From contig PXQV01000014.1 of assembly GCA_003021175.1 (NCBI GenBank), forward strand, positions 1 to 64,000: 64,000 bases of DNA, written 5' to 3'. This DNA is from Halobacteriales archaeon QH_7_66_36. Its GTDB lineage: Archaea > Halobacteriota > Halobacteria > Halobacteriales > Haloarculaceae. Numbering within the stretch: position 1 is the first letter of the stretch; each line of letters starts with the position of its first letter. Below, one piece after another: positions 10,142-40,420 of the stretch. A program made the position numbers and the translations under genes. The notes under the pieces are model-generated. The model worked only from the letters and a program-made list of their open reading frames with translations. It was not told the origin of the DNA and did not search any database.

Positions 10142-10451
10142 GGCGGTGTTCAGATAATGGGTCGTCGCTCGACAGAGTGACTGCGATGGGTGGGACTGAA
10201 AGAGGCCGTCATCGGCGGCGAAGCCGCCGATTGCTCGGGAGAGCTTTGCTCTCCCGGTGGGCGCTCGATCCGGCCCCGGCGAAGTAAGCACCGCAGCAAC
10301 GCGAGGAGCGCAACGAGTCGCGGACAGCGGGTGGCGGAGCCACCTCGGGCCGTGCGAGCGGCCTACGGCCGCGAGCAGACGGTCGAGCGCCCGGGGGCTT
10401 TCTACACCTTGTCATCCTCTTAGTCGCCGGAATCGCTCTTATCTGAACCCC
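10142..10451 (+). repeat. Modular inverted-repeat element, copy A (direct cassette)
   Basis: 310 bp intergenic element. Terminal inverted repeats are exact over GTTCAGATAA (10148-10157) and TTATCTGAAC (10439-10448). Core motif GGGTGGGACTGAAAGAGGCC lies at about 10188-10207. Two hairpins follow directly (CGGCGGCGAAGCCGCCG and GGGAGAGCTTTGCTCTCCC, 10213-10256). Then come a GTAAGCACCGCAGC block and the hairpin cassette 10325-10380 with stems GGTGGCGGAGCCACC and GCGGCCTACGGCCGC. It closes with GGGGGCTTTCTACACC. Related copies lie at 18727, 35136 and 40193. No reading frame is convincing. It could be a MITE-like element, a structured RNA gene or both. Confidence 0.8.
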
Positions 10452-10503
10452 ACTTCGCAAACGGACGCCGCGTTTTTGTGCCGGCGCGGCGTGCGAGAGC
10501 GTA

Positions 10504-18726: not shown

Positions 18727-19016
18727 GTGCACGCGGCGGTGTTCGAACAAGCGGGTCGTCGAGCGACTGTGTAACCGCGGTGGGTGGGACTGAAAGGGGC
18801 CGGTCGCTCGACGACGCCCGCCGATGTAAGGACCGCACCGCGAGCGACGCGAGCGAGAGGACCACAGCGAGGTCTGCTCGCGGCCGGCGGCCGCTCGCAC
18901 GGCCCGTGGCGGCTCCGCCGCCACGCTGCGCGCGAGTCGAGCGGGCGGGGGCTTTCTACACCCTGTTGCTGGCTTCTACGGTTAAATCGACCTTATCTGA
19001 ACACGGCCGCGCGCAC
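18727..19016 (+). repeat. Modular inverted-repeat element, copy B (inverted cassette)
   Basis: 290 bp between the larC 5' end and the topA 3' end. Ends: GTGCACGCGGCGGTGTTCG at 18727 and the matching inverse TTATCTGAACACGGCCGCG at 18993-19016. Core GGGTGGGACTGAAAGGGGCC at 18782-18801, then GTAAGGACCGCACCGCGAGC (shared with copy D). The cassette 18872-18928 begins GTCTGCTCGCGGCCGG and is the reverse complement of the copy A cassette, while the flanks and the closing GGGGGCTTTCTACACC stay in the same orientation. The right end lies 7 bp from the topA stop codon. Confidence 0.8.
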
Positions 19017-35135: not shown

Positions 35136-35475
35136 CTCGGTGGGGTCCAGCTAAGCGGATCGTTGCTCAACTACGCAACTGCGGTGGGTGGGGCTGAAAG
35201 GGGCCGGTCGCTCGATCCAGCCCCGGCGTTCGGAAGACGCGCAGCGAGCCGCGGACAGCGAGGTGGCGGAGCCACCTCGGGCAGTCGGCGCGACGCGCCG
35301 ACGACAGCGTGGAGCGGCGCTCCACGGGCCGTGCGAGCAGCGAGGGACTATCGGTCCCTCGGGCCGTGTGAGCGGCGAAGCCGCGAACAGACGGCCACCG
35401 GCCGCGAGCAGACGGTTGAGCGACCGGTGTGTTGCCCTCCTAATCTCTGGAGCCACTATCAGCTGAACACTGGCG
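35136..35475 (+). repeat. Modular inverted-repeat element, copy C (expanded cassette)
   Basis: 340 bp. Ends GGTGGGGTCCAGCTAA (35139 on) and CTATCAGCTGAACACTGGCG (35456-35475) are imperfect inverted repeats. Core GGGTGGGGCTGAAAGGGGCC at 35184-35203. The cassette 35256-35413 is about 158 bp instead of 56 and holds six hairpins: GGTGGCGGAGCCACC, GTCGGCGCGACGCGCCGAC, GTGGAGCGGCGCTCCAC, GAGGGACTATCGGTCCCTC, GCGGCGAAGCCGC and CGGCCACCGGCCG. Linkers GACAGCG, GGGCCGTGCGAGC and GCGAGCAGACGGT are the same as in copy A. The element ends 1 bp before the asd stop codon. Confidence 0.78.
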
Positions 35476-35476
35476 T

Positions 35477-40192: not shown

Positions 40193-40420
40193 GCCGGCAC
40201 GGCGGTGTTTAGTGAAGCCGTGGAGTTGCCGTGAGAGGAGCGGCGAAGCGTTGGGAAGCCCCTGCACGCTCGACTCGATGGGCTCGCTGCGGTCCTCCCG
40301 CTCGCGGTGCTCGCGGTGCGGTCCTTACGTCGCCCGTCTTCGTCGAGCGCACAGCCCCTTCCAGTCCCACCCCGAGCGGTTCCTTCCCCAGCAATCGCGC
40401 AACTAAACACTCCTGCCGGC
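40193..40420 (-). repeat. Modular inverted-repeat element, copy D (no cassette)
   Basis: 228 bp, oriented opposite to the other copies. Ends GCCGGCACGGCGGTGTTTAGT (plus strand 40193-40213, 21 positions compared) and ACTAAACACTCCTGCCGGC (40402-40420) are inverted repeats. On the minus strand the core reads GGGGTGGGACTGGAAGGGGC (40353-40372), then GACGTAAGGACCGCACCGCG as in copy B. Where A, B and C hold the hairpin cassette, D has only AGCGAGCCCATCGAGTCGAG (plus-strand 40268-40289). It is the compact or empty form. Confidence 0.75.

Follow-up and report, generated by a model that had tools for sequence, protein, structure and literature searches.

In the 64-kb stretch of DNA analysed here (the window), two copies of one repeated element, A and B, lie in the same direction and carry a short palindromic cassette in opposite directions, which raises the question of whether the cassette was turned over in place or arrived more than once. 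The earlier note on this DNA had allowed for both, the cassette being flipped or independently inserted, and had ascribed this to recombination or mobilisation acting on a palindromic module. Judging from sequence comparisons, we consider it very probable that the cassette is a non-autonomous mobile haloarchaeal double-hairpin element, which inserts as a whole unit with constant ends and in either direction, be it in MITEs, in its own copies or, in frame, in genes, and that A and B were filled separately. The source genome (2.6 Mb, 18 contigs, assembly 96.7% complete) was searched and sampled by stretches, and among the double-hairpin modules of the MITE the in-depth study was confined to the module of the A/B cassette. 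The features concerned are given below, where R1 stands for a covariance model made from 21 units, whose E-values are rough and whose per-genome counts are lower bounds.

10142 to 10454, plus strand: host copy A, a MITE with terminal inverted repeats GGYRGTGTTCAGATAAG.../...CTTATCTGAACACTRCC, the right end degenerate (repeats and 8-bp duplication taken from 66 copies)
10189 to 10202, plus strand: 5' host core GGTGGGACTGAAAG of copy A (GTGGGACTGAAAG has 48 exact occurrences in the genome, its reversed control none)
10208 to 10258, plus strand: double-hairpin module M1, different from the cassette, inserted after GGGGCC in copy A (some paralogues have M1 at the identical point, many lack it)
10325 to 10379, minus strand: cassette of copy A, one double-hairpin unit of 55 bp at site 2 (GCGGAC^GGTCGAGC; empty paralogues L012, L015, L062 and L079; R1 match of 67 bits, E 4.7e-11)
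10393 to 10408, plus strand: 3' host core GGGGGCTTTCTACACC of copy A, by sequence inspection
18735 to 19008, plus strand: host copy B, of the MITE family of copy A, by sequence comparison
18873 to 18928, plus strand: cassette of copy B, one double-hairpin unit of 56 bp at site 1 (GCGAGG^CGCGCGAG; empty paralogue L004; R1 match of 69 bits, E 1.7e-11; 52 genome matches by BLAST)
35139 to 35476, plus strand: host copy C, of the same MITE family, without the right core and with approximate ends, by sequence comparison
35256 to 35304, minus strand: related double-hairpin module M5, with end letters as in the cassette (M5 is reversed in L024 and L060)
35305 to 35412, minus strand: self-nested cassette unit in copy C, the outer unit at 35305-35337 and 35392-35412 (33+21=54 bp), the inner at 35338-35391 (54 bp)
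40204 to 40410, minus strand: a second, related MITE family (GACTGGAAGGGGC...GGGGCTTCC) with ends GTGTTTAGT and ACTAAACAC, bearing no cassette of the A/B kind at this locus

The claim that the two cassettes are reverse complements was borne out, and the bases quoted for it were right. In a repeat search 10330-10380 and 18872-18922 were returned as an inverted pair of 51 nt with 90% complementarity, and the reverse complement of A scored 44 in local alignment with B. A aligned directly with B scored 13, and the highest of 2,000 dinucleotide shuffles reached 21. Since the linker GGGCCGTGCGAGC is non-palindromic, the match is not a by-product of the palindromes themselves. It was also right that the flanking core keeps its orientation, as both the opening GTGGGACTGAAAG and the closing GGGGGCTTTCTACACC run in the same direction in A and B; the immediate flanks of the cassette, which differ between A and B, had been missed. 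The exact ends of the units were set by comparison with empty paralogues. Copy C of the earlier note is probably the element at about 35139-35476, in which the unit is present twice, nested, in the direction of A.

The host family is represented by 66 copies with the terminal inverted repeats GTGTTCAGATAAG and CTTATCTGAACAC. Their flanking 8-mers agree on average at 4.44 of 8 positions at the right offset, as against 2.45 over all offsets, and perfectly in nine of the 66 copies, and together with the terminal inverted repeats these matches identify the host as a MITE with 8-bp target duplications. An IS1595 transposase (PF12762), a candidate parent of such a MITE, was sought in the genome and none was found. 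The opening core at 10189-10202 resembles the 3' end of haloarchaeal CRISPR repeats (GTGGGATTGAAGC), a likeness that may be coincidental. Nine copies consist of the bare 35-nt host core without any insert, and other copies hold several different nested double-hairpin inserts, each with a preferred point of its own. At least five further double-hairpin modules of about 50-58 bp (M1, M2, M3, M5 and M7) were seen at fixed points of the MITE (10208-10258, L008, L009, L028, L144, L148 and others), and the second MITE family bears inserts of like kind. Among near-identical modules (10211-10231 compared with L008 and L009) the 3-base loops of the hairpins are found in either orientation (GGCGAAGCC, GGCTTCGCC), as if the tips flip. 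At L024 (G000:C10:174808 onwards) a module array, GCAGCGAGGGACC...CCCGAGGTGGG, is tandemly repeated with part of the host, which suggests unequal exchange between hairpins. Over the whole window 54 hairpins were counted, a modest excess over the 26-46 found in Markov simulations, and within it 9-bp stems with a 3-base loop are confined to the host copies.

The cassette itself has the layout 5'-TCTGCTCGC-hairpin 1-GCTCGCACGGCCC-hairpin 2-GCTG-3', measures 52-58 bp and begins with TCTG and ends with GCTG. These ends are identical in at least five contexts, comprising three MITE sites (sites 1 and 2 and, in the related MITE of L045, L051 and L052, site 3), insertion of the unit into itself, an SDR gene and an ArgB-like kinase gene. 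Self-nesting, as in copy C, is also present in L044, L059 and L088. The linker GCTCGCACGGCCC is among the best-conserved parts of the unit, the opposite of the unrelated hairpins with no common linker that the earlier note had named as its counter-case.

The unit was also found inside protein-coding genes, in the source genome and in other genera, as follows.

L201, L207 and L220, other genera: GatE
L202 and L203, other genera: cupin
L205, other genera: nitrite/sulfite reductase
L212, other genera: inositol monophosphatase
L216, other genera: Eco57I-type methylase
L217, other genera: arginase-family protein
L218, other genera: ArgB-like amino acid kinase
L229, other genera: DAO oxidoreductase
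L104, other genera: S9 peptidase
Source genome: trpA, SDR and a Mg-chelatase-like gene, each with the unit inside

In all 15 coding cases the unit is read on one strand and in one frame, giving a peptide close to DSEARSASGRASGQSPRADT, and the other frames are usually open too. As GatE and cupin recur, these cases amount to 12 independent genes; either acidic composition or family membership was used to pick them out, so that the sample may be biased and further cases may have been missed. The most likely reason for this single frame is that selection favours a peptide which is hydrophilic and does no harm. Empty orthologues were examined for three of the 12 genes. The SDR gene of the source genome has a 54-bp unit which its congener G004 lacks, and the ArgB-like kinase has a 54-bp unit in G008 and G345 and none in G344 (about 94% identity), G342 and G027. 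In trpA the nested units amount to 43-50 codons and nearly all relatives searched are without them; at the position of the insert the congener G001 has a short different stretch and G036 an unrelated Gly/Asp-rich stretch. Of ten proteins scanned with Pfam, six gave a domain match that continues through the insert (IMPase, arginase, AA_kinase, DAO, Cupin_1 and GatB_N), and the Pfam match of TrpA is split in two by it.

As to how such a unit may travel, its constant ends, its insertion in either direction and the absence of a clear target duplication suggest movement as a folded single strand of DNA that is copied at each new location. The agent could be an enzyme acting in trans, or template switching in replication or repair. 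One known kind of element that fits part of this picture is the terminal-only PATE, a remnant of an IS200/IS605 element with two near-terminal palindromes, no inverted ends and no target duplication, moved in trans by TnpA. The size and layout of the cassette are those of the 52-bp terminal-only PATEs of Haloquadratum (PMC3119063), and a target duplication is not clear in the cassette either. However, the cassette showed no similarity to the ends of the IS605-type element of the source genome (scores of 9 and 8, shuffle p of 0.34 and 0.54), and no fixed target word precedes it: GAC is common before units in the A-direction and missing at site 1, at site 3 and in the SDR gene, so that the target is not strictly conserved. 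Moreover, the only match to an IS200-type Y1_Tnp in the source genome (L164, G000:C10:165294-165608) is broken, and a hairpin insert near the start of this Y1 gene was seen to bring in a stop codon (MKTTRHATYNLNYHTV*LPKSRRTVGSADIAEQ...). A PATE remnant is thus an unlikely explanation, if the least unlikely of the alternatives. Because the sole Y1 match is broken and the unit is unlike the ends of this element, the agent of the mobile unit would be another enzyme, a transposase that belongs to the past or is absent from the assembly, or the machinery of replication and repair.

In the stems of the unit 99.1% of the alignment cells are paired across 21 aligned copies. The changes seen comprise 40 that are two-sided and none that is one-sided, G-U pairs do not occur, and none of 500 shuffles was as high in pairing and covariation. 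Strong covariation of both stems, and compensating variation also in the inner stems of the host, would be expected of a structured non-coding RNA, in which the cassette would be an expansion segment held in shape by selection on the RNA fold. In RNA under selection, however, G-U steps are usual, and the lack of these and other one-sided intermediates points instead to a recopying of one arm from the other in DNA, by which the arms would stay complementary. Units also stand on their own in unrelated genes and take either orientation with respect to their hosts, and a scan of the 64-kb window against Rfam gave no match. We therefore regard a selected RNA fold as quite improbable.

The question of flipping was addressed by tabulating orientation and junctions over the copies, as the earlier note had proposed. 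In-place inversion leaves the junction as it was and only the interior flips, and an invertible switch, in which a recombinase turns the cassette within a fixed host, is what the opposite cassettes of A and B in hosts of the same direction would at first bring to mind. Direction was instead found to be tied fully to the site: at site 1 (GCGAGG^CGCGCG) the unit has the B-direction in 11 of 11 host copies, at site 2 (GCGGAC^GGTCGAG) the A-direction in nine of nine, and at site 3 the A-direction in three of three. In none of these host copies did a reversed unit occupy an identical junction, so that no junction was seen with both orientations. The junctions of A and B differ, and each is that of the empty hosts of its own subtype, empty copies being known for both subtypes. 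The filled site 1 of copy B reads GCAGCGAGG, the unit TCTGC...CACGCTG, then CGCGCGAG, with L004 empty, and the filled site 2 of copy A reads GAGTCGCGGAC, the unit AGCGGG...GCGAGCAGAC, then GGTCGAGC, with L012 empty; the distance between the two sites is about 8 bp of host sequence. The flanks of copy A match the never-filled A-type hosts (L012, L015, L062 and L079) and not an inverted B. An inversion dragging 8 bp of the neighbouring host with it was also modelled and discarded, as the flank of A was not reproduced from inverted B.

The dependence of direction on site and the empty hosts of each subtype indicate that the cassette was inserted independently at different sites. Of the two possibilities first raised, independent insertion is thus upheld, and a flip in place appears highly improbable. 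The same division applies to the proposed mechanism, since mobilisation is supported by units within genes and within the unit itself where relatives are empty, and an inverting recombinase is unsupported. In the reading we prefer, A and B would have received the unit in separate events, at two sites and in two host subtypes, and direction would follow site because each pairing of site and direction was later spread by transposition of the MITE. That the likeness of A and B arose by chance among abundant GC-rich palindromes can practically be set aside, even though the genome is GC-rich and abounds in hairpin words like GCGAGC, given the alignment score far above the shuffle maximum, the conserved non-palindromic linker and the 54-bp insertions where orthologues are empty.

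The unit is widespread within one order. At an (approximate) E of 1e-5 or less R1 found it in 124 of the 195 genomes sampled from Halobacteriales and in 43 of their 66 genera, and in a phylum-wide sample all 11 genomes positive with R1 belonged to Halobacteriales, none of those sampled outside the order being positive. In the source genome there are at least 63 R1 matches at E<=0.01 and at least 42 at E<=1e-5. Among named genomes, the MAG Halobacteriales archaeon QS_9_67_17 was the sole haloarchaeon to match an exact 20-mer from the unit; two Streptomyces matches to this 20-mer were read as chance. A 70-bp query of a plasmid collection gave no match.

On balance we lean towards a broader reading of these data, in which the unit is an order-wide, protein-coding haloarchaeal double-hairpin mobile element that lacks a recognisable transposase, adds an in-frame hydrophilic peptide of 18 residues, is nested in MITEs and in copies of itself, and maintains the complementarity of its stems through arm-to-arm copying of DNA, and would be the archaeal counterpart of the Rickettsia palindromic elements (RPE). 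If this is true, protein lengthening by in-frame palindromic insertion arose in archaea as it did in Rickettsia, a parallel based on the constant ends of the unit and on its presence in about two thirds of the sampled Halobacteriales genomes and in core enzymes including TrpA, GatE and an ArgB-like kinase. For annotation, the unit also explains puzzling S/A/G/R-rich inserts in haloarchaeal proteins, and, as filled and empty sites are available in close relatives, it offers clean material for studying how transposase-less hairpins move.

No earlier description of the cassette was found in the open-access literature searched. It was assigned neither to RPE nor to PATE/SMR, in each of which a defining feature fails, nor to the Allomyces type, with which it was compared by structure only. 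Like REP and REPIN sequences it is a short mobile palindrome in high copy, but the GTAG/CGTC tag was not evident in an unsystematic look at the unit, and, as to RAYT, no intact Y1 transposase was detected in the source genome. The PATEs and SMR-A of Haloquadratum walsbyi are described as transposase-free and without target duplication, the PATEs having two palindromes and reaching down to 52 bp, and the SMR-A, of about 110 bp with inverted terminal repeats, inserting into palindromes of other mobile elements, preferably those of PATEs (PMC3119063). The cassette shares with PATEs the lack of terminal inverted repeats, palindromes near its ends, a length too short for a transposase and insertion without target duplication (the ArgB-like kinase junction, with a flanking GAAGAC repeat, leaves the ends ambiguous by 6 bp). 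PATE ends resemble IS605 ends, whereas those of the cassette are unlike the IS605-type element of the source genome, the sole one compared; it differs from SMR-A in its 52-58 bp and in its ends, TCTG and GCTG, which are not inverted. The available part of the same account does not describe in-frame coding insertion for either kind (PMC3119063). The double-hairpin elements of Allomyces mitochondrial DNA and the GC clusters of yeast mitochondria are small double hairpins found also in genes, with frequencies that differ between close species, and flanking duplications were not reported for those of Allomyces (PMC2800124). The likeness here is of structure alone, in two hairpins with a linker and insertion without flanking duplication, and no homology is claimed; those elements are mitochondrial, and the conserved in-frame peptide and nesting in MITEs are features of the cassette.

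Rickettsia is the best-known source of palindromes inserted in frame. The RPE are short palindromic mobile units that lie in frame in unrelated genes and encode a conserved peptide (PMC10969869). They are bacterial and about 150 bp long, whereas the cassette is haloarchaeal, measures 52-58 bp and has two separate hairpins with a conserved linker. The likeness is one of behaviour, seen in the in-frame insertion of the unit into unrelated genes whose orthologues are empty (SDR, the ArgB-like kinase and trpA, with more genes indicated by Pfam).
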